A stretch of 64,000 bases of DNA from a virus. The number at the start of each line of letters is the position of its first letter. The stretch's first letter is position 1. Below the pieces are notes generated by a model. That model did not search any database, was not told the DNA's origin, and saw only the letters and a program-made list of their open reading frames with translations. The DNA lies in IMG/VR virus record IMGVR_UViG_3300024308_000016, positions 62,001 to 126,000 of that record; one strand, given 5' to 3'. Position numbers and translations under genes: made by a program. Below, in pieces: positions 4,663 through 31,788 of the stretch.

Positions 4663-5496
4663 TTATTGGGGTTCCAGCACAATCCCCGCAATCATGGAGT
4701 TGCCGTTTGGAGCTGTGCTAGAGTAGTAGAAGTTGCTGGCTGCTGAATCATAAACTGCGAATACCGCAGCTCCTGAATCGTTAAGCATCCAGCTATTGCC
4801 TGGTGTGCGGGTCGATACCTGATTATAGAACCTCAGCTCTTCCGCCATTCCGCCAAAGCACAACTGGTAGGAGATGAATTCTTCCTTCGTCATCGCCCGT
4901 GCTTTAAAATCAAAGACATCGGTCGAGATGGTCTTAGTCGTATCAATCAGATTGGTTTTGAAGTTTCCGATTGCTGTAGCCGACGGCCCAGTCATGTAGA
5001 AATTAGGCTCCTCGTTAAAGAACAGGACATTTCCTTTGAATGCAATCTTACTGATCTTTGGTGGAAAACCGGGGACTGCAAAGTTATCTGTCCGAGATGC
5101 CAGAGTTATGCCCGCAGAAGCCACGTACCGCTCGCTTATGGTGCGCCATATACCGACCAGAGATCCATAAGCTTCGGTATCCAGCCTTTCCATCAATCCG
5201 TCGGAGAAATTACCGGCGATGACCTGCTGAGACCCGGGACCACACTTGGCCACCACGGCTCGTCCGATCTTAGGCACCGAGTAAATCGGCCCAAGCTGAC
5301 TGTTAGCCACAAGACCGTACCAGTAAATAGTATCGTTCTCAGCAGTTTGATCCAGCATCTGTACGGACGAACCATTCAACTGGATCGGTAACTCATTTTC
5401 AACGGAATAAAGCGTCTGAGGATTTGTCGATCGATAGCCTTTGAAGCTATCGATGGTTGCCGATGGGTCATTTTCCCAAGTAACGAGAATAGACAT
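4663..5496 (-). CDS. virion/tail-type protein, block A member 2
   Basis: 277 aa beginning MSILVTWENDPSATIDSFKG. The N-terminal strands (GYRSTN, DTIYWYGLVANS) resemble an FN3-like fold. A CGPGSQQV hinge follows, then ISKIAFKGNVLFFNEEP, the local form of the family motif. It aligns by start (SIxxxW), by GPG hinge and by position with the gene at 19655-20533. It lies three bases after the stop of member 1, and the next gene starts eleven bases after its own stop. The structural role is inferred; no enzyme motif is visible. Confidence 0.82.
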   Translation of the reverse strand: MSILVTWENDPSATIDSFKGYRSTNPQTLYSVENELPIQLNGSSVQMLDQTAENDTIYWYGLVANSQLGPIYSVPKIGRAVVAKCGPGSQQVIAGNFSDGLMERLDTEAYGSLVGIWRTISERYVASAGITLASRTDNFAVPGFPPKISKIAFKGNVLFFNEEPNFYMTGPSATAIGNFKTNLIDTTKTISTDVFDFKARAMTKEEFISYQLCFGGMAEELRFYNQVSTRTPGNSWMLNDSGAAVFAVYDSAASNFYYSSTAPNGNSMIAGIVLEPQ

Positions 5497-5499
5497 AAT

Positions 5500-6510
5500 T
5501 TATTCCTCTACAAGTTCAAGAATAGGCCAGTATTGAGGGCAATTTGGATACATACTGCTATTTACGACCGCGTTTGTCGAATAGATGCTGTATTCACCAT
5601 TGGTCGAGTAAGTTACTCCAGACGCATCCCAAGATGTGTATGGGAGTATGTTGTTAGTCGTCTGCGGCGTAACAAACTGGGCCAATGAAGTACTATCAGC
5701 AAGCGTCTCCGCAGTGAGCATCCTTGCGCGAAAAGCAGTCAGCGGCCGAACTATAGACCCAACCTGATTGGGAAAAGCCATGCCACGGTACATTGGCAGT
5801 ATCAGCTGAGCAAACTCAGTAGAATTCTTATCCCCTTTGTCACCCAGTTTAGTTCCGTCCCAATCATCTGCGAAACCACGGGCTGTCCGAATGTTGAACG
5901 TCCACCCACCGGTCGATACTACTCGGCTCTTGCGAAACGGCGCGTACTCTGGAGCGGACGTATCAAAGTTCCACGGGATTCCAGAGGCGATTCCCTTGTT
6001 CGCCATGACCCATACAGCGGATACATGGTAACCAGTTCGCCCATAGACGGGGCGGTCTGGTACAAAGTAGATTTTATTCTTACGGCAGAATTTATACCAT
6101 ATTGCGTTTGCGGACCAGTCGTTAAGAGCGCCAAGATCAGATGAACTAGCGGCCAACGCTGTCTTCAAATCAGTGATCGGATCAGGAAGATCATAATTGT
6201 TGACTTTACCCAACAGCCCGTATCGAACATCCCCTCGAAGAAAGTCCATCGACCCTGGCCCGCGTTTGCGGAGGTCTAACTGAGTCGATGGCGCGGTCTT
6301 TACGGAATTGTACGCCGTCTTTGCTTCGATCAAGTAGGTGTACTCCATGCCTACATTGGTTGTTGTGTCAGTGTAGGTGTTGACATTTCCAGCCAGAGTA
6401 ACTATCGGTACCCCGGGGGAGTTGACATTGATTGTCTTTCCTTGGTTGCGATAGATAAGTATTTGCGCATCAGCAGTGTTTCCGCCGCGCCACTTCAAAA
6501 TGATTGCCAT
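5500..6510 (-). CDS. virion/tail-type protein with FN3-like N-terminus, block A member 1
   Basis: The start is MAIILKWRGG (ATG at 6510) with AAGGAG eleven bases upstream on the minus strand; an in-frame extension upstream reads poorly and crosses a homopolymer tract. An FN3-like N-terminus (ILIYRNQGK, YTDTTTNVGMEYTYLIEAKT) is followed by KRGPGSMDFLRGDVRYG, then WYKFCRKNKIYFVPDRPV, and ends QYWPILELVEE. The gene at 20537-21535 matches throughout (IYRNEGTTI, RRVGPGGVD, WYKFVRKGKIMYVPSIP, end LWPVLQLIEE). It heads the leftward five-gene block. Role inferred: tail or fibre structure. Confidence 0.85.
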   Translation of the reverse strand: MAIILKWRGGNTADAQILIYRNQGKTINVNSPGVPIVTLAGNVNTYTDTTTNVGMEYTYLIEAKTAYNSVKTAPSTQLDLRKRGPGSMDFLRGDVRYGLLGKVNNYDLPDPITDLKTALAASSSDLGALNDWSANAIWYKFCRKNKIYFVPDRPVYGRTGYHVSAVWVMANKGIASGIPWNFDTSAPEYAPFRKSRVVSTGGWTFNIRTARGFADDWDGTKLGDKGDKNSTEFAQLILPMYRGMAFPNQVGSIVRPLTAFRARMLTAETLADSTSLAQFVTPQTTNNILPYTSWDASGVTYSTNGEYSIYSTNAVVNSSMYPNCPQYWPILELVEE

Positions 6511-13837: not shown

Positions 13838-14986
13838 TTATGTACCGTACAGGACTTCGTGATTGACAAAATCACCAATAAACCAATTGTCAGTGGTCCG
13901 GGCCAAAGACAGCGCCCTGTATGCGTCTGGTCGACCGCGTACTTGCGTCCACTTACGTGTAGCAGTCCAGTCGGGGTTGAAGTCATAGCGCAACAGGTAG
14001 CCAGTAGTAGCGCCTGAGACATACGCCGCGATCAACATGTACGACTTATCCGCCGACATCCTGATACCGCCGCCGAAATAGCGAATCTCTCCAACGTCAG
14101 AAGGAGGTAAGATGGTTGCTTTATGTTCGAAGACATCGATGCCGTCGAACACATAAACATAAATTCCACCCGTATAGTTGGACCCGCCGTTTGTCTGGGT
14201 AGGGGCGCCTACCAGGATAACGGTACCGTCATCAGACACCTCAACAGCTGACCCAAAGTTCGACCCCGCTACAACGTTTGGCATTGTCAGCCACCCCACC
14301 AAATGCCAATCCGGATATCCTCGGAAGACTCCGATTCGATTTTGAGACGGCACACCAACGACCATTGTAGAGAGATTGCGGCTGATCTGAATGATGTTCG
14401 CAGATCCAACTGTGCCAGACAGATCAATCCGATTGAACGCAGTCCAGGAGCTGCCTAGATAAGTGAACGTATGGATGCGGCCATTGTTGGAGTTCTCCCC
14501 CGGTGCCAAAACAGCCATGTACGTGCCATCGGGGCTCAGGGCTACAGAGTTACCGAAATAGCCGTTATTGACCGGCGACGGGGAAACGGTCCTGAATTTA
14601 CTCCATGAGCCGTCACCATTTAGCGTGTACGTCATCACGAAGCCCTGGTTACCGTCGTTGTTGTAGCTTGCTCCCCCGGACACAAAGAACGTACAGTCGC
14701 TATTGCTGGCAAACGTCTTCAAGTTACCACTGTTGGCCGCAGTTGAGGAATCGGTCATCACTGACTCCTGAACCATCAGACCATTTTGAGTCTTGAATGT
14801 GTAGATAGACGCCAGAGCCTGGGTGTCGTAGGGCGCACAAAACGCAGCTCGCTGCCCATCCGCCGAGATCAGTGTCTGAGCGGGGAAGAACTGGTAGGTG
14901 CGCTTCGGGTTGAGTGCCGGTACATTGATGATCCGACCTGTTGCACCGGATTCAGCTTTGGCTGCACCTGTGAGAAGTTCCAGCAT
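13838..14986 (-). CDS. FG-GAP/beta-propeller virion-type protein, block B member 7
   Basis: Starts MLELLTGAAKAESGATG (ATG at 14986). The 382-aa protein is almost entirely beta propeller. Repeats of the form SADGQRAAFCAP, FGNSVALSPDGTYMAVLAPG, SRNLSTMVVGVPS, FGSAVEVSDDGTVILVGAP and MSADKSYMLIAAY resemble the F-G-x-S-V-x-x-x-x-D-G-x-x-L-x-V-G-A-P pattern of FG-GAP repeats. The MLEL start matches neighbouring genes. It has no counterpart in block A. Propellers often mediate glycan or protein binding, so a receptor-binding or adhesion role is plausible but inferred. Last gene of the leftward block, ending at a bidirectional terminator. Confidence 0.85.
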   Translation of the reverse strand: MLELLTGAAKAESGATGRIINVPALNPKRTYQFFPAQTLISADGQRAAFCAPYDTQALASIYTFKTQNGLMVQESVMTDSSTAANSGNLKTFASNSDCTFFVSGGASYNNDGNQGFVMTYTLNGDGSWSKFRTVSPSPVNNGYFGNSVALSPDGTYMAVLAPGENSNNGRIHTFTYLGSSWTAFNRIDLSGTVGSANIIQISRNLSTMVVGVPSQNRIGVFRGYPDWHLVGWLTMPNVVAGSNFGSAVEVSDDGTVILVGAPTQTNGGSNYTGGIYVYVFDGIDVFEHKATILPPSDVGEIRYFGGGIRMSADKSYMLIAAYVSGATTGYLLRYDFNPDWTATRKWTQVRGRPDAYRALSLARTTDNWFIGDFVNHEVLYGT

Positions 14987-14993
14987 AGTTGCC

Positions 14994-15758
14994 TCATGTC
15001 GGAAGGTTGGGGACCTCATTAGGAGGTACGAACTGCAGAATTGGCAACCACAGGCACTCCTTGCTGGAGCCGCCGATCAAGTACCGACCACGACTGCCAT
15101 TGGCCGCGGAGACGACCACCGTGATCATCTGGTTGGAATCATGGGAGGGGTGTTGGCAAAACACTTCCGGATTGCGGCCTGCGTAGGCGGGCTCGAAGTC
15201 ACTCAGCGGCAGCTTCCAGGCATTGGCGTATTCGCTGGCTGGGAAATAGGGTCGGTAAATCAGATCGAGAACTTCCCCGTTTTTGACGGGATCATTGCCG
15301 GTGTACTGGATGAACTTGACACCATCTTGATCCAGCAAGTTACGGGCAAACACCGTAGAGCCGTCACTGGTGGTGAACGTTTGATTCATGGTGTATGCGG
15401 TTTTTCCGATCATCGGGAACCTGGGGATCTCCGATGACGGCAGCAGCGCGTTGTAGTACACCTTGGTGTCGAAGTTCCATGCGAACAGTGTCCGACCAAT
15501 GGGGAACTGCGGCACATAGAGCACCTTACCTTTGCGGATAAACTTGCCCCACATATTGGTCGCTGGTGCGTCAGTGAAGTCGCGCTTATTCGAAGGCAGC
15601 AAAGCAGCCAGCTTCGAGCCCATGCCCAACACGGAGTCAGGTACACGGCCAAAGTAGCCATAGTCTTCAGTGCCCAGAGTGAGTACCTTGGTGCCGGGAC
15701 CCGACCAGGGGATTGTGCCGGGGGCTGGCGAGGACTCACGGGTGATTAGTTCAAGCAT
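14994..15758 (-). CDS. virion/tail-type protein, block B member 6
   Basis: 254 aa starting MLELITRESSPAPG. The hallmark parts are SGPGTKVLTLGTEDYGYFG and WGKFIRKGKVLYVPQFPIG, the clearest form of the family motif. It ends with an ECLWLPILQF strand like other members. Its plan matches the N-terminal half of the kelch gene at 17645-19639 and of the block A gene at 3615-4652, so it is probably an additional copy of that type. A ribosome site GATAGGAGAAAC lies before the start on the minus strand. The stop is seven bases from the next start. Structural role inferred. Confidence 0.83.
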   Translation of the reverse strand: MLELITRESSPAPGTIPWSGPGTKVLTLGTEDYGYFGRVPDSVLGMGSKLAALLPSNKRDFTDAPATNMWGKFIRKGKVLYVPQFPIGRTLFAWNFDTKVYYNALLPSSEIPRFPMIGKTAYTMNQTFTTSDGSTVFARNLLDQDGVKFIQYTGNDPVKNGEVLDLIYRPYFPASEYANAWKLPLSDFEPAYAGRNPEVFCQHPSHDSNQMITVVVSAANGSRGRYLIGGSSKECLWLPILQFVPPNEVPNLPT

Positions 15759-15780
15759 AATGTTTCTCCTATCAATTTAT

Positions 15781-15816
15781 CTCTGATCCCTGGGCTATCC
15801 TGCCCAGGGATCAGAG
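15781..15816 (-). terminator. intra-block hairpin
   Basis: A 15-bp perfect stem (CTCTGATCCCTGGGC with its complement) lies between members 5 and 6 of block B. No T-run follows on the minus strand, so it may be a weak terminator or an RNA-processing or stability hairpin within the operon. Confidence 0.6.
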
Positions 15817-15818
15817 CT

Positions 15819-16697
15819 TTACGCAGGCCCGATGTATTTCAGAGCGATAAGGACGTAGACAGCCGAGACCGTCCCCGTGGGTTCATTGAACGTCAGCGTG
15901 GTGCCGGTGTTGTCGATGTTCACTACTTTGCCTTGCTCATTCAAGGCCACGAATGTCGATGTGCGCGACACCGAAGAAGCCGTGTATTGAATAGGCGTGG
16001 TTGCAGGTGGGTTGATCAGCCAGCTATTGCCGATACTGCGTGCCATTGGCTCTGTGATGGCCACAGCCTTGTACTTGTAGCCACCGAACGTGTAGACGTT
16101 AGCCGTGGTGGCTGGGTTGTTCAAGTAAGAGGTCAGAGCCCAGACATTGGTGAGTACATCAGCGGCGGCCATGGATGTATTGCCCACACGGAAGATGTTC
16201 TCCAGATCCCAGGGGATCAGGTAGATCTGGCCTTCGATCACCACAGGCTCCCAAGTCGCAGCAGCTCCATTGGGTGATGGGCTATCGGCTACATTGCAGC
16301 CTGTGGTCACCAGAGCTGGCCAGTTGGTGACCAACGCTTGTGTAGGCTGAGCAGGAGCCGGCAGCATCACACCAACTTGTCCGCATCCGCGCGTGGTGAT
16401 CTTACGCGTGGAGGAGAACGCCGCAGGCATCCCCGGGAAGAAGGGACCGAAGTCCTCGATGTACATGTAGCTGAACGCCTGCAGCGGGATGAAGAACTCC
16501 CCTCCCGCATGCTTGTACTCTACACGGTACCACCACAAGCCTGGGTAGATGACAGACTCATCTGTGTAGGTATCGACATATGCGCCGGTGTATACGGGGG
16601 AGCCCTTGCCAAGATCGGCCCGTGTATCAGCGCGCCAGATACGGATGCTGGTGTCCTGGGTTGCTCCAGGGATATTGAGTTTGAAGCTCGGTTTCAT
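15819..16697 (-). CDS. virion/tail-type protein, block B member 5
   Basis: 292 aa beginning MKPSFKLNIPGATQDTSI. Early strands resemble FN3 (RIWRADTRADL, TDESVIYPGLWWYRVEYKH). The family segment appears as WEPVVIEGQIYLIPWDLE, and the C-terminus is YVLIALKYIGPA. Start, length and the IGPA end match block A member 5 (1778-2680), which holds the same fifth position. Six bases separate it from the upstream gene. A structural or fibre function is inferred from the family. Confidence 0.83.
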   Translation of the reverse strand: MKPSFKLNIPGATQDTSIRIWRADTRADLGKGSPVYTGAYVDTYTDESVIYPGLWWYRVEYKHAGGEFFIPLQAFSYMYIEDFGPFFPGMPAAFSSTRKITTRGCGQVGVMLPAPAQPTQALVTNWPALVTTGCNVADSPSPNGAAATWEPVVIEGQIYLIPWDLENIFRVGNTSMAAADVLTNVWALTSYLNNPATTANVYTFGGYKYKAVAITEPMARSIGNSWLINPPATTPIQYTASSVSRTSTFVALNEQGKVVNIDNTGTTLTFNEPTGTVSAVYVLIALKYIGPA

Positions 16698-16703
16698 ATT
16701 CAG

Positions 16704-17591
16704 TTACTCCTGAAACAGTTCCATGATCGGGATGAAGGAGTTGTTGGCCGAAGTCAACCCCACTGTGACGATCCCCAGTCCCACCGCAGATGCGTTGGGC
16801 ACTGTGGCCCACCCGAGCATGGCCGAACGATTGGCCGCTCCATAATCCGATGTGATGGTCGGTACACTGGAGGCAAAAGTGCTGTGCGCAAACCGGAAAG
16901 GAGCTGCGGAAGAGCGAGCCAAAGCACGCACCATGATCCGGTACAGGTCCAGAAATTCGGACTGGCCGAATGGCATGCCGTCAGCGAAATTCAGGCTGTA
17001 GCTACTGGATTCCACCAGTGTGTTGTTGTAGTCGTACAGCTTGGCGATGCGAGTATAGTACTGGCGAAAGCCGACCACACGCGTGGGAGCTGGTGCCTCC
17101 GGACCATACAAAGGAGTGATGCCGCCGCGCAGCAAGTTGGCTGCTTCCAAGGCAGTGGCGTTCTTGCCGGTATTGATCACAGGCGCACCCACATACAGGA
17201 TGCGTCCGCGATATGCGATCTTGAAGTAGCGAGAGTCAGGAGCGCTGTTGTACCAGTTAGATACGGGAAAGCCCACTTCGTAGTCATTGACCACGCCATA
17301 AAAGCCCAAGAACAAATCGCCCCACAGCAGCTCCTGAGGACCTGGGCCGGTGTCGGGCACGATGCGAACATTCAGTTCACGGGAGAAGGCGCTCTTGCCG
17401 TCAGCCTCCACCTTCAGTAGGTAGTACACCTGACCGCCCAAAGGCGCGGTGGCGTCCAGATAAGACTGCTCATTGCTAGTGAGAGTGACCAGCGGAGCTG
17501 GCAGGTTTTGCTGATCGATCGGAGAGTCGGAGCGATACAGCATCAGTGTCGAAGGGTTGTTCGGATTGACCCAGCTGACAAGTGCGGACAT
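16704..17591 (-). CDS. virion/tail-type protein with FN3-like N-terminus, block B member 4
   Basis: 295 aa starting MSALVSWVNPNNPSTLMLYR. An FN3-like N-terminus runs to about residue 85; PDTGPGPQELLWGDLFLGFYG and YFKIAYRGRILYVGAPV follow. Near residue 215 are MPFGQSEFLDLYRIMVRAL and a C-terminal FIPIMELFQE. Block A member 4 (2677-3576) has the same GPGPQ, GDL.LGF.G, YPFGISETMDFSRMM and TSDY landmarks, showing direct homology. Role inferred: tail or fibre structure. Confidence 0.85.
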   Translation of the reverse strand: MSALVSWVNPNNPSTLMLYRSDSPIDQQNLPAPLVTLTSNEQSYLDATAPLGGQVYYLLKVEADGKSAFSRELNVRIVPDTGPGPQELLWGDLFLGFYGVVNDYEVGFPVSNWYNSAPDSRYFKIAYRGRILYVGAPVINTGKNATALEAANLLRGGITPLYGPEAPAPTRVVGFRQYYTRIAKLYDYNNTLVESSSYSLNFADGMPFGQSEFLDLYRIMVRALARSSAAPFRFAHSTFASSVPTITSDYGAANRSAMLGWATVPNASAVGLGIVTVGLTSANNSFIPIMELFQE

Positions 17592-17612
17592 GTTGTTTCC
17601 TTTTGAATGAAG

Positions 17613-17636
17613 AGGCTGCGCCTTCGGGCGCAGCCT
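17613..17636 (-). terminator. intra-block hairpin
   Basis: AGGCTGCGCC-TTCG-GGCGCAGCCT, ten perfect pairs with a stable TTCG loop, between members 3 and 4. On the minus strand it is followed by TCTTCATTCAAAAGG, so it may attenuate rather than stop transcription. Confidence 0.6.
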
Positions 17637-17644
17637 GTAGGCAG

Positions 17645-19639
17645 TTATGCCACGAGTTTTGTCGGATCAAACACCGACAGCTGATTACGAGGACGATTGT
17701 CGTCGTAGGCGCCGGGTCGATTGGGGTTGGTTCCGGGACCCACCCAGATCTTACCGTCATTTTGCAGACCGCACACTCCAAGCGATTGAGGCGGGATGCC
17801 CAACGCTTTGATGCGAACGCTGTTGTCCGACAGATCCAAAATCACCGCATACGCCACCGATGGGGAAACATCGCTGAAGCCGCCGATGGCCACAACTTTG
17901 TTGTTCACCACTGTCGCTTGTCCGATGGCTTTGAAGCCATACGTCGTGGGCATTGGTAAAGTGCTCCAGGTGTTGGATGCGATATCATAGACCCGGATCA
18001 CGGTGTTCCAGGTATTGGTAGAACCTGTGGTGTTGAGGCCACCGATCAAGTACACCTTGGTAGGAGTCGCGGCCAGGGCTGCATAGTACAGTCCCATCCC
18101 AGGAGGAGCGATGACGGACCAGGTGTTGGTCGCCACATCGTACAAACCCGCTTCGTTGTAAGTCGTTCCAGACAAGTTGTAGCCGCCCACCAACATGATC
18201 TTGTTTTGCGTCGGCAAAGAGCAGACATTGGTGACCACTCGAGTGGAACCCGGAGTGGCGGCATGAGCTGTCGGTGACGAGGGGTTCGCAACAGGCCAAC
18301 TGTACATGTTTTTGGTCTGGCTGCCGGCGATGTAGCCATTCATCATGTAAAAGCGGCCGTTGTGCGTGCATCCTGAGTACCAGGTAAAGCCCGAGGGAGT
18401 TCCTGGAGCGATACGGCGCTTGGTCTTGGTGACAAAGTTGAAGACCGACATGTACGCCGGATACTTATCTTCCCCACCGCCTTGCGTTCCACCCATGCCA
18501 AACGGTGTATACATCTCATTGCCGTTGACCCATCCGGAGCAGCACTGAATCGCGGTGCCTTCATAGACAGCTTCCGGACGCACAACGTCTGGAGAAACCG
18601 GGAAAGATCGGGAGATCTGACCTGGTTCATTAAACGATTGCACGCCCGTGATCATCGGTGCCACAAAGCTCATCTGAGCGTATTCTTCGAACTTGATGAC
18701 CGGACCACGCGCAGAGCGCAGAACCGGGGAACGCAGACCTTCTACAGTCATCGTTGGTAGCACGATCGACTGATCCAAAGGAGCTCGGAAGTTGTACGGC
18801 GGAAGCATAGACTCAGCGATTCCCCAGATCACGGGCTGAGAATTCACCGCATCCGACCAACTCTCCAAATTGCTGATCGGCAGTGCGAGCTTCTTCTTGT
18901 CGTCTGTTGTCAGCAGTTGCACCACCGGAAGCCAGACCGTAGTATTGCCCATGGAGGTCTGAGCAACCTTATTCATGTCCGCATTGGTGGTATCGAGTCG
19001 AAGCACTGAACCCACTGTCGAGGAGATGATCTCTACCCCGCTAGTGTTGGCTTGTTGACCGGCAGTGACGCCGTTGATGTAGCTCGCCGGCAGCCGGATC
19101 CCCTGCGGATTAGTCCAATTGGCACCGAACACAGATACGATCAGGTTGTAGGCTTCAGATTCCGTGCTGAGCACTTCATCATAGACCACTGATGTCGCAT
19201 TGGGCTTGAGGTCGATCAGGCGCGGGAACAGCAAGTCCTTATTAGGGGCTGTATACACAGGGTTCATGTCGTACATGGGGCTGCCATCCGGCAGTGTGGC
19301 TGGGGCATCAGCCGTGCCGCGCTTCAGGCCGCTGTACGTCATCTTGGCCGCTTGCAGCTGGTTATACGTCACCAGCGCCGTCTTGAACGTTGGGATGAAA
19401 ACAACCGAGCCTTTGAAGAAGAACTTCATCCACTGATTGTCCGCGCTAGCGGAGTACAGTCGGGAAGCTTCCGGGATCTGGGCGTCATCCAACATCTTGG
19501 TGAAGAAACCCAGCTCCACTTCTGGAACCAGGCCAAAGAAGCCCAGATCCGTGTTCCCCATCCGCAGGTATTTGGTACCTGGTCCGCTGTCGGAGTAGTA
19601 CGGCAGGTGGGAAGACTGCCGCATGAAGATTTCAAACAT
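17645..19639 (-). CDS. virion/tail-type protein with C-terminal kelch propeller, block B member 3
   Basis: The 664-aa protein starts MFEIFMRQSSHLPYYSD. Residues 1-300 follow the family plan: SGPGTKYLRMGNTDLGFFG, WMKFFFKGSVVFIPTFK, and a WLPVVQLL strand. From about residue 370 to the end are kelch-type repeats with paired Gly and spaced Tyr/Trp: IMLVGGYNLSGTTYNEAG with YDVATNTWSVIAPP, VYLIGGLNTTG with YDIASNTWSTLPMP, KVVAIGGFSDVSP. The block A counterpart (3615-4652) lacks this propeller. A domain-fused receptor-binding or adhesin role is plausible; inference. Confidence 0.87.
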   Translation of the reverse strand: MFEIFMRQSSHLPYYSDSGPGTKYLRMGNTDLGFFGLVPEVELGFFTKMLDDAQIPEASRLYSASADNQWMKFFFKGSVVFIPTFKTALVTYNQLQAAKMTYSGLKRGTADAPATLPDGSPMYDMNPVYTAPNKDLLFPRLIDLKPNATSVVYDEVLSTESEAYNLIVSVFGANWTNPQGIRLPASYINGVTAGQQANTSGVEIISSTVGSVLRLDTTNADMNKVAQTSMGNTTVWLPVVQLLTTDDKKKLALPISNLESWSDAVNSQPVIWGIAESMLPPYNFRAPLDQSIVLPTMTVEGLRSPVLRSARGPVIKFEEYAQMSFVAPMITGVQSFNEPGQISRSFPVSPDVVRPEAVYEGTAIQCCSGWVNGNEMYTPFGMGGTQGGGEDKYPAYMSVFNFVTKTKRRIAPGTPSGFTWYSGCTHNGRFYMMNGYIAGSQTKNMYSWPVANPSSPTAHAATPGSTRVVTNVCSLPTQNKIMLVGGYNLSGTTYNEAGLYDVATNTWSVIAPPGMGLYYAALAATPTKVYLIGGLNTTGSTNTWNTVIRVYDIASNTWSTLPMPTTYGFKAIGQATVVNNKVVAIGGFSDVSPSVAYAVILDLSDNSVRIKALGIPPQSLGVCGLQNDGKIWVGPGTNPNRPGAYDDNRPRNQLSVFDPTKLVA

Positions 19640-19654
19640 ATTGGCTCCTTTGGG

Positions 19655-20533
19655 TCAATCCGCCGGAGTCATCACGTACAGCGGGTAGCAGATGGCGTTG
19701 GTTGCGAATGCGTCCGTCAACGTGGCCTCCACCGCCGTCATGATGTACGGGCGTGCTCCGACAGGCGCTCGCAAGCGGTACAGTTTTCCGTCCTTTTGAG
19801 CCAGCACATAGTGGTTGGCATATGCGGGGATGGGCTGCTCCACCGAACGGATCATCCAGCCATTGAGGTTGGTGGGGCCGCCCGAGTTCTTGCTCCAGTA
19901 CTGCATGGCGTGGTCCAGATCCATCAGCTGGATCCGAAGACGAAATCCCTGGTATTCAAAGAAGACGCCGTCATTCAAGATGGATGCGACCGTTGTATCG
20001 AACGTCTGGCGCTGAGCAGCTGATGTGAATGTTCCGTACGTCATGAAGTCCGCTGGCATGAAGTACACCTTGCCACCGATGGTCAGCTTGGAGACCAGCG
20101 ATCCGTACTGACCGGGCACGATGGAGCTGGTGGTGCGGTTGAGTACAGTCAGTTGGGTGGACAGAGCCGAGAACAGCACCGAGTTCGACGCACCGAACAG
20201 ATCGGGCATGTTGGTAGCAGACGTGGCGTCCAGCATCCCTGACTCCATGGAGCCACGGGTGACATTGATGCCACCAGGACCAGCGGAGTTCACGTACTGG
20301 ATGGCGAGGATGGGCTTGGACTGCATGGTCCCCAGTGGAGTCAGGGACTCCACACCGTAGTAGTACACGGTGTCGGGTTGAATAGTCGTATCCTCGTAGT
20401 CCAGCGTCGTAGTGGCGAACTCCTGCAGCAGGTTGGCTGCGTCGAACAAGTTGGCCTTGGTGGCGCTTCGGTAAACCCGAAAGCCGGAGACGTTGCCGTT
20501 GTAGGCGTTCGCCCATTTGAGTTTGATAGACAT
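19655..20533 (-). CDS. virion/tail-type protein, block B member 2
   Basis: 292 aa starting MSIKLKWANAYNGNVSGFRV. An FN3-like N-terminus contains YRSATKANL and DTVYYYGVESLTPLG. A SAGPGGINVTRGSMESGML hinge and VSKLTIGGKVYFMPADF follow. Block A member 2 (4663-5496) matches in start, in the YYGVES/YWYGLVAN strand, in the GPG hinge and in the KI/KL..GKV.F segment. It ends MTPAD with little space to the next gene. Structural role inferred from the family. Confidence 0.85.
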   Translation of the reverse strand: MSIKLKWANAYNGNVSGFRVYRSATKANLFDAANLLQEFATTTLDYEDTTIQPDTVYYYGVESLTPLGTMQSKPILAIQYVNSAGPGGINVTRGSMESGMLDATSATNMPDLFGASNSVLFSALSTQLTVLNRTTSSIVPGQYGSLVSKLTIGGKVYFMPADFMTYGTFTSAAQRQTFDTTVASILNDGVFFEYQGFRLRIQLMDLDHAMQYWSKNSGGPTNLNGWMIRSVEQPIPAYANHYVLAQKDGKLYRLRAPVGARPYIMTAVEATLTDAFATNAICYPLYVMTPAD

Positions 20534-20536
20534 TGT

Positions 20537-21535
20537 TTATTCCTCGATGAGTTGCAGCACAGGCCACAGAGCTGGAGCGCCACCATTACGCCACTTTGCT
20601 AGGATTTGGTCAGCGCTGCTCGAATTGTAGGTATTGACGATGTAGTAACCCTTCACCCAGTCGGCGACGATGGCGTAATTATGGTCGTAGACACCATACT
20701 CACACATCAGTGTCTCATTGGACTGAGGAAGGGCCTCAGCAGCAATGTACCTCATGAAGGTTACACCTTGAGCCCAGATCTGAGGAGTGACCGAACCCAC
20801 CTGGTTGCCAATGATGCAGCCTTGCATCATAGACTGGATGAGCTGGTTCATCTCGGTGTCGCGCTGCAGCGTCAGGGCCGCATTGTGTACACCGTTCCAG
20901 TTGTCTGGATATGCTCGGGGAGCACGCAAGTGAAAGCGGTCTATTCCCGCTGTCAAGATCTTGGTCTTGCGATAGGGGTTGTATTTGGCCGCCGAGATGT
21001 CGAAGTTCCAGTCCAGGCCAGAAGCAATACCAGGCACATTGGCCGCCCAGATGCCACCCAACCACGGATCGTAGTCGTTGTACGTGGTGGTCATGGGGAT
21101 AGAAGGCACATACATTATCTTGCCCTTGCGTACAAACTTGTACCACTTGAGCACAGCCATTGCGGCATTAGTCTTTCCACGCTCAAAGCCCAGAGCTGTC
21201 CACACATCAGGCAGCTCATAGCTGGGAACTTGGCCCATATAACCGAACTCGCTGTCGCCGGTGAGAATGTCTACGCCACCGGGACCTACACGGCGCAGGT
21301 TGGCTGTTACCGTTGGTCGCGAGAAGCTCGAGCCCAAAGGAGCGCGGATCTCCACCAAGTAGGCATACGTTTTGCCAGGTTCAGTGGTGTTGTCGACATA
21401 GGCGACGGCGTTAGAGTCCAGAGTAGCGATCGCTGTGCCTTTGCTGGCTTCAGTGATGGTGGTGCCCTCGTTACGGTAGATATACAGGGAGTTGCCAGGA
21501 GTGTTCTGGTTGCTCCATTTCAGATGGATAGCCAT
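20537..21535 (-). CDS. virion/tail-type protein, block B member 1
   Basis: 332 aa starting MAIHLKWSNQNTPGNSLYIY. FN3-like strands run to about residue 85 (YVDNTTEPGKTYAYLVEIRA). RRVGPGGVDILTGDSEFGY and WYKFVRKGKIMYVPSIPM follow, and the protein ends LWPVLQLIEE. It is the direct counterpart of block A member 1 (5500-6510). It heads block B; AAGAGGTACGAC lies before its ATG on the minus strand. Likely virion structure, from family features only. Confidence 0.87.
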   Translation of the reverse strand: MAIHLKWSNQNTPGNSLYIYRNEGTTITEASKGTAIATLDSNAVAYVDNTTEPGKTYAYLVEIRAPLGSSFSRPTVTANLRRVGPGGVDILTGDSEFGYMGQVPSYELPDVWTALGFERGKTNAAMAVLKWYKFVRKGKIMYVPSIPMTTTYNDYDPWLGGIWAANVPGIASGLDWNFDISAAKYNPYRKTKILTAGIDRFHLRAPRAYPDNWNGVHNAALTLQRDTEMNQLIQSMMQGCIIGNQVGSVTPQIWAQGVTFMRYIAAEALPQSNETLMCEYGVYDHNYAIVADWVKGYYIVNTYNSSSADQILAKWRNGGAPALWPVLQLIEE

Positions 21536-21636: not shown

Positions 21637-21795
21637 TTATGCAGTATCCATGTCCTGATAAATGAAGGGTACAAACACCCCGCTGTCAGATAAATTTGGT
21701 AGCACGCGACTCTTAACTATGTTTCGGACCACAGTTGCAGAAGACAGGCTCAAGTCATCACTCCCGGGAATTTCGATATACAGCACTACTCTAAT
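21637..21795 (-). pseudogene. possible C-terminal remnant of a leftward virion gene
   Basis: On the minus strand this stretch reads VLYIEIPGSDDLSLSSATVV, then RNIVKSRVLPNLSDSG and VFVPFIYQDMDTA to a stop. It is beta-rich and, like members of block B (for example NSFIPIMELFQE), ends in a hydrophobic strand. No credible start codon or upstream domain follows; further upstream the frame becomes Cys- and Phe-rich and overlaps the 21809 gene. The hairpin at 21593-21634 lies right after it. It could be the tail of a deleted family member. Chance coding is the alternative. Confidence 0.3.
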
Positions 21796-21808
21796 GAATG
21801 GAGGATTT

Positions 21809-22942
21809 ATGCAACTGTGGAACCGACATACGAGACCCAAGGACATCCAGGCGACCTATATCGGGCGCGGCACTCCTTGGGGCAACCCCTTCAAAGTAAC
21901 AGAGGAGCTCCCCCGAGGAGAGGCCGCCGCCGCTTATAAGAAAATGATCGCTGACAAGCTGGCAGTCGGTGATCGAGTGACTCGTCAGTTGGTCAGCGAT
22001 CTGGCAGGTGTGGACCACATCGAATGCTCGTGCGCACCCAAGCCCTGCCATGGGGATACCTTTGTGGAGATCTGGAACAATATCCGAGATCTGGGAAGTG
22101 ATGTGAAAGCCGGTATCCGTAAGTTCGTCAAAGAAAACGGCTACCCATATGGCCCAGATACCGATGGCTCGGACCATATCAACATCTACTCCAAGGCAGC
22201 CACCAGCCTAGGGAGGGCACTCACCAACATGAGCGCGATCCCTGTGGAGATCCCAGACCACGGCAAGTTCCCCAGTATGGAGAACTACTGGCACTGGCTG
22301 GCCACAGGCTGTCAGCATGAGCAGTTTCGTACGATCGGGCCCTTCGATGCCAAAAAGCTCTCCAAGACGCTCACTCGTGTTCCCCGAGATGACTTCCAAG
22401 AGTTGATCAAACAGGCTCTCATCCAGCGCTTTTACCAGGGCCCTCCGGCCCTTATCCGGGCATTTGTCAGATCTGAAAAGCCCCTGACCCACTACTACCA
22501 CTACGGCTCCGACGCTACTGTGATGTACACCTCCCATAACTGGTTGGTTGACTTCTTGACCGAGTACCGGGAGCAAAGAAAGAAGACCTGGTACAAGGTG
22601 GTCATCGCGGGCACTCGCAGGTTCACGGACTACTCATTGTTGCAGCAAGTGATTCAGGACTCCATGTATCCGATCACAGAAGTGGTCTCTGGTGCTGAGA
22701 AATCAGGAGTGGATGCCTTAGGCGAGCGCTATGCGGCGGACAACAACCTGCCTGTGCAAAGAGCGCCTGCCGACTGGGACACCCATGGGAGGGCAGCCGG
22801 CCATATCCGAAACGCCGAGATGGCCAAGTACGCAGACGCCGCTATTGTGATCTGCGTGAACCAGTCACCTGGATCTATGAACATGATCCAACAAATGAAA
22901 AAGCTCGGCAAACCGGTGCATGAGCATCACATCACGATGTGA
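21809..22942 (+). CDS. DUF4326 + NADAR-like + SLOG (DUF2493) fusion protein
   Basis: GGAGG at 21800-21804 fixes the start at the ATG at 21809; earlier in-frame ATGs lack a binding site. The 377-aa protein has three parts. Residues 1-95 are DUF4326: YIGRGTPWGNPF (17-28) and CSCAPKPCHGD (73-83). Residues 120-258 are NADAR/YbiA-like: INIYSKA, then SMENYWHWLATG (156-167), matching the S.E.Y helix of that family. Residues 261-377 are a SLOG domain of the DUF2493 type: VVIAGTRRFTDY, VVSGAEKSGVDALGERYA, ADWDTHGRAAGHIRNAEMAK. SLOG folds bind nucleotides or derivatives, and NADAR proteins act on ADP-ribose N-glycosidic bonds. A role in nucleotide-based defence or counter-defence is inferred. Ends at a hairpin. 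Confidence 0.88.
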   Translation: MQLWNRHTRPKDIQATYIGRGTPWGNPFKVTEELPRGEAAAAYKKMIADKLAVGDRVTRQLVSDLAGVDHIECSCAPKPCHGDTFVEIWNNIRDLGSDVKAGIRKFVKENGYPYGPDTDGSDHINIYSKAATSLGRALTNMSAIPVEIPDHGKFPSMENYWHWLATGCQHEQFRTIGPFDAKKLSKTLTRVPRDDFQELIKQALIQRFYQGPPALIRAFVRSEKPLTHYYHYGSDATVMYTSHNWLVDFLTEYREQRKKTWYKVVIAGTRRFTDYSLLQQVIQDSMYPITEVVSGAEKSGVDALGERYAADNNLPVQRAPADWDTHGRAAGHIRNAEMAKYADAAIVICVNQSPGSMNMIQQMKKLGKPVHEHHITM

Positions 22943-22945
22943 CCA

Positions 22946-22969
22946 CCAGCGACCCTTATGGGTCGCTGG
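22946..22969 (+). terminator. hairpin terminator
   Basis: CCAGCGACCC-TTAT-GGGTCGCTGG, ten perfect pairs, then GGTTC. It directly precedes promoter copy 2. Confidence 0.7.
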
Positions 22970-22979
22970 GGTTCATCTG

Positions 22980-30498: not shown

Positions 30499-31788
30499 AT
30501 GCAAGCTCCATTCATCAAGAAAGCCATCCTGCAGGTTCCTTTCCTGACGGTCGACGAGATCTTCGACCGCGAGATGCCGTTCATTGCGGCATTCAGCCAA
30601 GACCCGGTGTTCCGCAGCAACATCCACACCTGGATGGAGTTCTACGGCCGCAAGCAAGACGCACTGCCCTTCTACCAAGTCGACGCCCAGTGGGGCGAGC
30701 GGCTGCGTCAAGGTTTGACGCTGTTCATGGGCCAGATGCGTGGGGCACTGCAAAACCTCTTCGACACCAGCACGGACGAAGAACTCATGGCGATGTTCCC
30801 GATGCCGGGCGTGGAGCCAGCAGTGAACCTGGCGTTCGTGCAATACGCCCGTTACACGTTCGCCAAGGACCATCCCGCGTTTGGCGGCCGCTTCGATCTG
30901 CAGGTGGACCCCAACACGGGCAAGGCGTTCATCTACGAATTCAACGGCGACACGCCCGCGATGCTGTTCGAGTCGATGAACCTGCAAAACCTCTTTGCCG
31001 TGGTCAATGAAGACGAAGAAGCGCAGCTCAACGACATGTGGGTCAAGACCGAAGAGCGCGGCCTGGTGGACAGCTCCTCCAAGGTGGCCGTGGTGGTCAA
31101 CACCAACTGGCCTGAGGATCTGGGCACCAGCGAAGCCATCGCGCAACTGCTGGAGCAGTCGGGTGCTCAGGTCTTCCTGGCCGACATGACCATGTTCCAG
31201 TTCGACAGCGCAGGCGATCCGGACCGCAATCCCTTCTTCCTGACGTCGGTGCCGTCCACGGACCTGACACACGTGCACATTATGCTGCCGTGGGAGGAAA
31301 TGGTGCAGTCCAACCCGCAGGCCATCTCCCGTTGGCGTGAATGGGGTGACAAGGTCCGTTTCTTCGAACCGGCGTGGCGCTGGTTCATGAGCCACAAGAA
31401 GTTCCTGACGCTGCCTGAGCTGCAGACCTACGGCCTGGCGCGCAGCCATGCCAACTGGGCCGACTACCAGCTCGAGCACGTCACGTTGATCGAGACACCC
31501 AGTGTGGCCGAGGGCGGCTATGTGGCCAAGCCCCAGCTGGGTCGCCAGTCGGCGTCGGTCGTGGTTCATCGTCCGGGGCAGGCGCCTGTGACCAGCCGCA
31601 ACGACAACTACGTCGACTACCCGGTCGTGTACCAGCCCTACAAGGCTCCTGGCCAGATCGAAGGCGCCAACTTCATCGCCTGCATGTGGATGGCAGGTGA
31701 AGAAGCGGCGTCGCTGGCTTTCCGTGAGTTCGACGGCCAGATCCTGGATCTGGAAAATGAACGCGTGATCTTGCACGAACTCGTGTAA
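30499..31788 (+). CDS. ATP-grasp ligase of the glutathionylspermidine synthase/YgiC family
   Basis: The CAATAGAAAG leader precedes the ATG at 30499. The 429 aa (cellular YgiC is about 390) carry the family landmarks: a Q.GERL-like WGERLRQGLTLFM region, GRFDLQVD, AFIYEFNGDTPAMLFES (the YE.N.DTPT..LE motif), DKVRFFEPAWRWFMSHKKFL (the W..L.SNK...L motif) and VAKPQLGRQSASVVVH (the KP..GREGANV motif). The family forms an amide between a peptide carboxylate and an amine using ATP. The substrate here is unknown; with the lipoprotein at 29551 it is probably envelope-linked. A cellular gene pair acquired by the phage is likely. Confidence 0.88.
   Translation: MQAPFIKKAILQVPFLTVDEIFDREMPFIAAFSQDPVFRSNIHTWMEFYGRKQDALPFYQVDAQWGERLRQGLTLFMGQMRGALQNLFDTSTDEELMAMFPMPGVEPAVNLAFVQYARYTFAKDHPAFGGRFDLQVDPNTGKAFIYEFNGDTPAMLFESMNLQNLFAVVNEDEEAQLNDMWVKTEERGLVDSSSKVAVVVNTNWPEDLGTSEAIAQLLEQSGAQVFLADMTMFQFDSAGDPDRNPFFLTSVPSTDLTHVHIMLPWEEMVQSNPQAISRWREWGDKVRFFEPAWRWFMSHKKFLTLPELQTYGLARSHANWADYQLEHVTLIETPSVAEGGYVAKPQLGRQSASVVVHRPGQAPVTSRNDNYVDYPVVYQPYKAPGQIEGANFIACMWMAGEEAASLAFREFDGQILDLENERVILHELV

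Follow-up and report, generated by a model that had tools for sequence, protein, structure and literature searches.

A single 377-aa protein, in which a DUF4326 domain, a divergent phage-type NADAR domain and a YAcAr SLOG domain are joined in that order, was found to be encoded in the window, a 64,000-nucleotide stretch from the 272,393-base record of a giant bacterial virus. As predicted, all three domains are present in the one chain; DUF4326 and SLOG were recognised by Pfam, and NADAR was recognised by hhalign, by a profile search of the PDB and by a structural model. Our tentative reading, held with somewhat less than even confidence, is that the protein may be a phage ADP-ribosyl eraser used in counter-defence, by de-ADP-ribosylation of bases, against DarT-like toxins; in this reading the substrate, the counter-defence and what SLOG and DUF4326 contribute are predicted. 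It is based on the three domains, a conserved catalytic pair, the recurrence of the fusion and a DarG-type alternative partner. The features of the gene and its product are listed below.

21800-21804, + strand: GGAGG ribosome-binding site of the fusion gene
21809-22942, + strand: DUF4326-NADAR-SLOG triple-fusion gene (P0001), 377 aa, translation free of stops
21845-22066, + strand: DUF4326 domain (PF14216), aa 13-86, Pfam E=4.7e-16
22025-22054, + strand: CSCAPKPCHG motif, aa 73-82, where the functional centre of DUF4326 is presumed to lie
22067-22153, + strand: helical linker that joins DUF4326 to NADAR, aa 87-115, from the AlphaFold2 secondary structure, partly conserved in L016
22154-22582, + strand: phage-type NADAR domain, aa 116-258
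22280-22282, + strand: E158 (in SMENYW), equivalent of NADAR E43/E88 (Pn E43 / C7 E88), present in 64/64 relatives
22301-22303, + strand: A165, at the K50/K95 position of NADAR (phosphate-binding Lys)
22490-22492, + strand: H228 (in LTHYYHYG), at the catalytic E125/D171 position by motif, present in 64/64 relatives
22592-22933, + strand: YAcAr SLOG domain (PF10686), aa 262-375
22941-22973, + strand: strong hairpin (-27.3 kcal/mol, z=-5.67), from the stop codon onwards

The middle domain is as divergent as had been proposed. The Pfam NADAR model (PF08719) matched neither the fusion protein nor any of 10 phage records, and in a panel of 64 viral relatives it gave weak matches to 4/64, while Phage_30_3 matched 5/64. 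The region was covered by phrog_11222 (aa 116-365, 1.1e-43) and phrog_652 (aa 114-285, 8.1e-33). A NADAR profile was built from 64 aligned phage and IMG/VR relatives and compared by hhalign with known families. The YbiA family was matched with a probability of 95.8% (E=6.8e-9, 130 columns) and T4 gp30.3 with 87.4%, compared with 0.2% for SLOG as the negative control. When the profile was compared with all PDB sequences, only YbiA 2b3w (E=0.009) and NADAR 8bau (E=0.010) came near significance, with the catalytic Glu in register, and the next match was a collagen chain (E=1.6). The AlphaFold2 model (pLDDT 94.5) was matched by Foldseek to 8bau, an ADP-ribose-bound NADAR, with a probability of 1.00, an rmsd of 3.0 A over 112 columns and a modest E value of 0.017; for the full-length model there was no PDB match at E<=0.001. 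From the YbiA comparison, the PDB profile search and the model match to 8bau, it is therefore concluded that the middle domain is a divergent phage-type NADAR. T4 gp61.2, known as the anti-DarT factor AdfA, was also considered as a NADAR and was rejected, as the NADAR profile gave no match to it, even with filters off.

Only G135, E158 and H228 were invariant in all 64 NADAR relatives, which argues that selection holds the catalytic pair. The SMENYW segment, singled out in the original prediction as the place to look for active-site residues, was confirmed to carry the catalytic Glu, with E158 and H228 kept and the Lys replaced by Ala. H228 was placed by motif only (LTHYY vs KLVEH), hhalign having left those two columns unpaired. 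The NADAR Glu (E43/E88) has been tested experimentally, and the third catalytic position can be Glu, Asp or, in phages, His (PMC11543638). In the E. coli C7 NADAR, K50/K95 is essential for guanine-ADPr hydrolysis (PMC11543638). The corresponding position, A165 here, is K in 21/64, R in 4/64 (K or R in 25/64) and A in 13/64 of the relatives. With Ala in place of the phosphate-binding Lys, a residue that the clade does not conserve, the enzyme may have another substrate or another rate. K182, which the alignment to 8bau places at Pn K75, is retained and is K or R in all relatives. Judged from its residues, the active site is neither destroyed nor canonical. The same virus encodes a second NADAR-like domain within a 520-aa protein (L007, G000:C1:224598-224999), in which the catalytic Glu is replaced by Lys and the His by Asn, and which is probably inactive.

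The SLOG domain was detected by Pfam at aa 263-326 (E=2.8e-12; 46.7 bits vs a cut-off of 28.2). Its core (GxR...GxxxGxD) is retained (G268, R270, G295, G300, D302, A330, G331, R334 and N335), and the near-invariant WDG loop, which the SLOG of L106 keeps, is changed to CVN (aa 349-351). DprA, a single-stranded DNA-binding protein, and ThsA are both among the Foldseek PDB matches of this domain, so the ligand could be DNA or a small nucleotide.

DUF4326, a domain often seen in phages, is not known to have any activity. It scored 59.6 bits with Pfam against a cut-off of 25, and it keeps all seven residues (R20, N26, C73, C75, C80, H81 and G82) that do not vary among 77 viral DUF4326 sequences. 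Modelled alone, it reached a pLDDT of 93, and Foldseek detected no fold match in the PDB, rhodanese-like or other (best E=1.9), although a match can be missed for so small a domain. DUF4326 has been proposed to be a rhodanese-phosphatase acting on ADPr phosphates (PMC9503650). Because the model had no PDB relative, this proposal is not supported here, with the same reservation about domain size; in addition, the residue at +6 from C75 is H81, whereas a CX5R loop needs Arg. DUF4326 was also seen inside long proteins of 388-858 aa (L099, L107, L128 and L146), the other parts of which were unmatched.

The fusion gene is real. The program-made open reading frame was longer, with its start at 21662, and the ATG at 21809 was favoured on account of the GGAGG at 21800-21804 and of the closest homologue, L016, which starts at the same residue. 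Neighbouring genes have a different leader, AATAGAAAG. This sequence was found at 16 sites in the window, from 11645 to 55507 and all on the + strand (0.18 expected), 5-11 nt upstream of gene starts at the sites checked; it is likely a phage-specific translation leader, and the fusion gene lacks it. The hairpin at the stop codon is likely the 3' end of a single-gene transcript, so that the gene probably has a transcript to itself. A sigma-70 promoter scan around the gene found none above chance. Neighbouring genes on the - strand include members of virion structural families and Kelch-repeat tail-like proteins, and small unknown genes lie downstream. A run of - strand genes occupies 13838-21535, several of which (16704-21535) match phrog_1062/phrog_3589, and one of the run (17645-19639) has a Kelch beta-propeller. 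A glutathionylspermidine synthase-like protein (phrog_6215, 4.4e-67) is encoded at 30499-31788 on the + strand. The fusion protein carries the sole DUF4326 and the sole YAcAr SLOG of its genome, where searches for Macro, Nudix and NAPRTase found none.

The same three-domain order was present in two other virus contigs, L016 (375 aa, 50% identity) and L106 (399 aa, 35% identity). As these contigs are independent, the order reflects neither chance nor an assembly join. Upstream of the fusion, L016 and L106 share homologues of the window genes at 12.6-13.8 kb, and the three viruses are therefore distantly related. Two-domain combinations were also found: DUF4326-NADAR in L047, L050, L065 and L105, and DUF4326-SLOG in L110, L144 and L147. 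A search around 80 stand-alone phage SLOG loci for the separate domains, as suggested by the original prediction, found DUF4326 within 2.5 kb in 8 and Macro in 2. Of 50,697 phage genomes, none covered 80% of the fusion protein in one place, and none of the BFVD matches listed had a query TM-score above 0.38. A single-sequence scan of IMG/VR with the protein found nothing, and alignment-based scans did find relatives. A common ancestor of the NADAR-SLOG forms is not seen on the NADAR tree (4 changes), and a single origin was not rejected (p=0.12). Several independent DUF4326-NADAR fusions are not claimed: the most parsimonious tree has 4 changes, and one origin was not rejected (AU p=0.125). 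For the forms fused to SLOG and for those fused to DUF4326, the tree is compatible with one origin and does not demonstrate it. Adjacent pairs of NADAR genes were observed in L011 (2004-2937) and in L072 and L079 (near 5000-5940), and in Pseudanabaena phage Pam2 such a pair lies between ribonucleotide reductase and thymidylate synthase.

In a clade of jumbo phages (Erwinia, Salmonella and environmental relatives), a macrodomain precedes NADAR-SLOG, either fused to it (L012, L017, L019, L024 and L028) or encoded by the gene next to it (L001, L020, L022, L023 and L031). The best match of this partner macrodomain was DarG, with PADLOC (1.5e-43 to 8.6e-41) and with NCBIfam (2.3e-40, the generic model giving 0.039). 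It retains the catalytic FPTK Lys (DarG K80) and the VNT/VNC Asn, the importance of which has been demonstrated (PMC5179494), and its plasmid relatives adjoin DUF4433/DarT. On this sequence evidence the partner was assigned to the DarG type, which replaces the annotation in Ea35-70 as a Poa1p-like ADPr-1''-phosphatase. Two antitoxin domains of DarT are known, the DarG macrodomain and NADAR. As the related proteins combine both, the pairing makes removal of ADP-ribose from nucleic-acid bases more likely for the family than an action on soluble signals; this is unproven for the DUF4326 version, whose equivalence to the Macro version is an analogy of position. Co-occurrence of Macro and DUF4326 above the cut-off was seen in 0/10 and 1/6 records, which are few, related and partly fragmentary; strict mutual exclusion is therefore suggestive and not claimed. 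The virus of L106 has DUF4326 plus a separate Macro. A tandem duplication was observed in Salmonella phage vB_SalM_SA002 (L013, 1952-3828), where a Macro-NADAR gene is followed by a truncated Macro-NADAR-SLOG gene.

Under the preferred reading, NADAR would use E158 and H228 to detach ADP-ribose from a nucleobase by cutting the N-glycosidic bond that joins them. The base would most likely be guanine, in DNA or RNA that a DarT-like toxin of the host has modified. SLOG would bind a nucleotide or nucleic-acid ligand and position or gate the enzyme, and DUF4326 might perform a second chemistry on ADP-ribose, in place of the DarG-type macrodomain of the Macro-NADAR-SLOG relatives. The phage NADAR T4 gp30.3 takes ADP-ribose off guanosine in DNA (PMC11125620) and in RNA (PMC11833690). 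Also counted in favour were the NADAR homology (profile, PDB profile and fold), DprA among the SLOG matches, and a genome with a sole DUF4326 and YAcAr SLOG in which no Macro, Nudix or NAPRTase was found. Counted against it were A165 at K50/K95, the positional nature of the DUF4326/Macro equivalence, a NADAR tree that shows no common NADAR-SLOG ancestor, the L106 virus with both, and the failure of the T4 NADAR to rescue cells from DarT1 (PMC11125620). The link to ADP-ribose chemistry made in the original prediction is well supported by homology, and with E158 and H228 retained neither a missing NADAR relationship nor a destroyed active site speaks against it; neutralisation of an NAD- or ADP-ribose-based defence, however, is what we infer, and the idea was already present in PMC7824862 and PMC9503650. 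In a bolder version, which we consider doubtful, DUF4326 would be interchangeable with the DarG macrodomain as a third, structurally unrelated ADP-ribosyl eraser that acts on nucleic-acid damage, and the fusions would be multi-substrate anti-toxins reversing several ADP-ribosylations (guanine by NADAR, thymine by Macro and another by DUF4326).

Base de-ADP-ribosylation is the best supported explanation, slightly ahead of degradation of soluble signals, which is possible and the less probable of the two. The protein would then counter soluble ADP-ribose derivatives, with SLOG sensing or cleaving cADPR-like signals, NADAR cutting N-glycosidic linkages and DUF4326 stripping terminal phosphates. 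Fusions of this sort have already been explained in this way in print: phage Macro, NADAR and SLOG co-occur and fuse, viral SLOGs belong mostly to a YpsA-like clade that includes cADPR sensors, and DUF4326 is the proposed phosphatase (PMC9503650). ThsA among the Foldseek matches is consistent with it, and a NADAR lacking K50 and retaining the basic K182 would allow a different substrate. The DarG type of the macrodomain partner argues against it, as do the lost WDG loop and a DUF4326 with H81 for Arg and no PDB match. A housekeeping or RNA-repair enzyme, clearing damaged nucleotides or ADPr by-products of the phage's own NAD-using reactions and not directed at host defence, seems unlikely: YbiA/NADAR proteins are also N-glycosidases on riboflavin intermediates with a proposed RNA-repair link (PMC9503650), and the NADAR genes of L009 and L011 have genes for RNA ligase, ribonucleotide reductase or thymidylate synthase nearby, but the gene studied here stands alone beside tail and virion genes with its own hairpin, in a genome where Nudix and NAPRTase were not found. 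Least probable is a non-catalytic sponge or toxin-binding decoy, in which at least one domain would do no more than bind an ART or ADP-ribose compounds. The changes of K50 to Ala and of WDG to CVN would fit such a binder, the phage anti-DarT factor AdfB works by direct interaction (PMC11481870), and the second NADAR of this genome has lost both catalytic residues; unlike that degenerate paralogue, however, the fusion protein retains E158, H228 and all DUF4326 invariants.

DUF4326 is joined repeatedly to NADAR/SLOG, in the position of a DarG-type macrodomain, which makes it a testable question which ADP-ribose linkage it cuts. The DarG-type Macro together with NADAR in related phages suggests single proteins able to counter both DarTG classes.

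Jumbo-phage fusions that join DUF4326 to SLOG, Macro and NADAR, and the same counter-defence idea, have been published (PMC7824862, 2021; PMC9503650, 2022), and are like the present protein in domains, in occurrence in large DNA viruses and in the class of role proposed. The exact three-domain order is not stated in the available parts of their text, and the present case differs from what is given there by a divergent phage NADAR missed by Pfam, with its catalytic residues mapped. The domain combination is thus rare and the kind of protein had been predicted before; new are the negative fold result for DUF4326, the DUF4326-NADAR-SLOG chain in three viruses, the identification of its Pfam-invisible middle as a NADAR whose partial active site has been mapped, and the assignment of the alternative N-terminal domain to DarG. 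Vibrio phage Vp_R1 encodes a SLOG-DUF4326 protein with two of the three domains, in reverse order and with no NADAR. T4 gp30.3 (PF08010) has the NADAR fold, the catalytic Glu and, by motif, the His in common with the fusion protein, and differs in standing alone, in keeping the K50 equivalent and in its measured activity. The DarT1-linked NADAR antitoxin of DarTG1 shares the superfamily and the catalytic Glu, but has Asp for the His, a conserved Lys and no DUF4326 or SLOG, and is encoded with DarT; the fusion protein was not classed with it, as it has His at the D171 position and no DarT was matched among the searched neighbours of its gene. Close counterparts are also the Macro-NADAR-SLOG proteins (e.g. 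Erwinia phage pEa_SNUABM_37 QXO10117.1; phrog_11222), the group to which the NADAR-SLOG proteins of Ea35-70 and RAY also belong; their NADAR-SLOG part aligns end to end with that of the fusion protein at about 35% identity, and their DarG-type macrodomain, N-terminal or encoded by a separate gene, contrasts with the DUF4326 found here.
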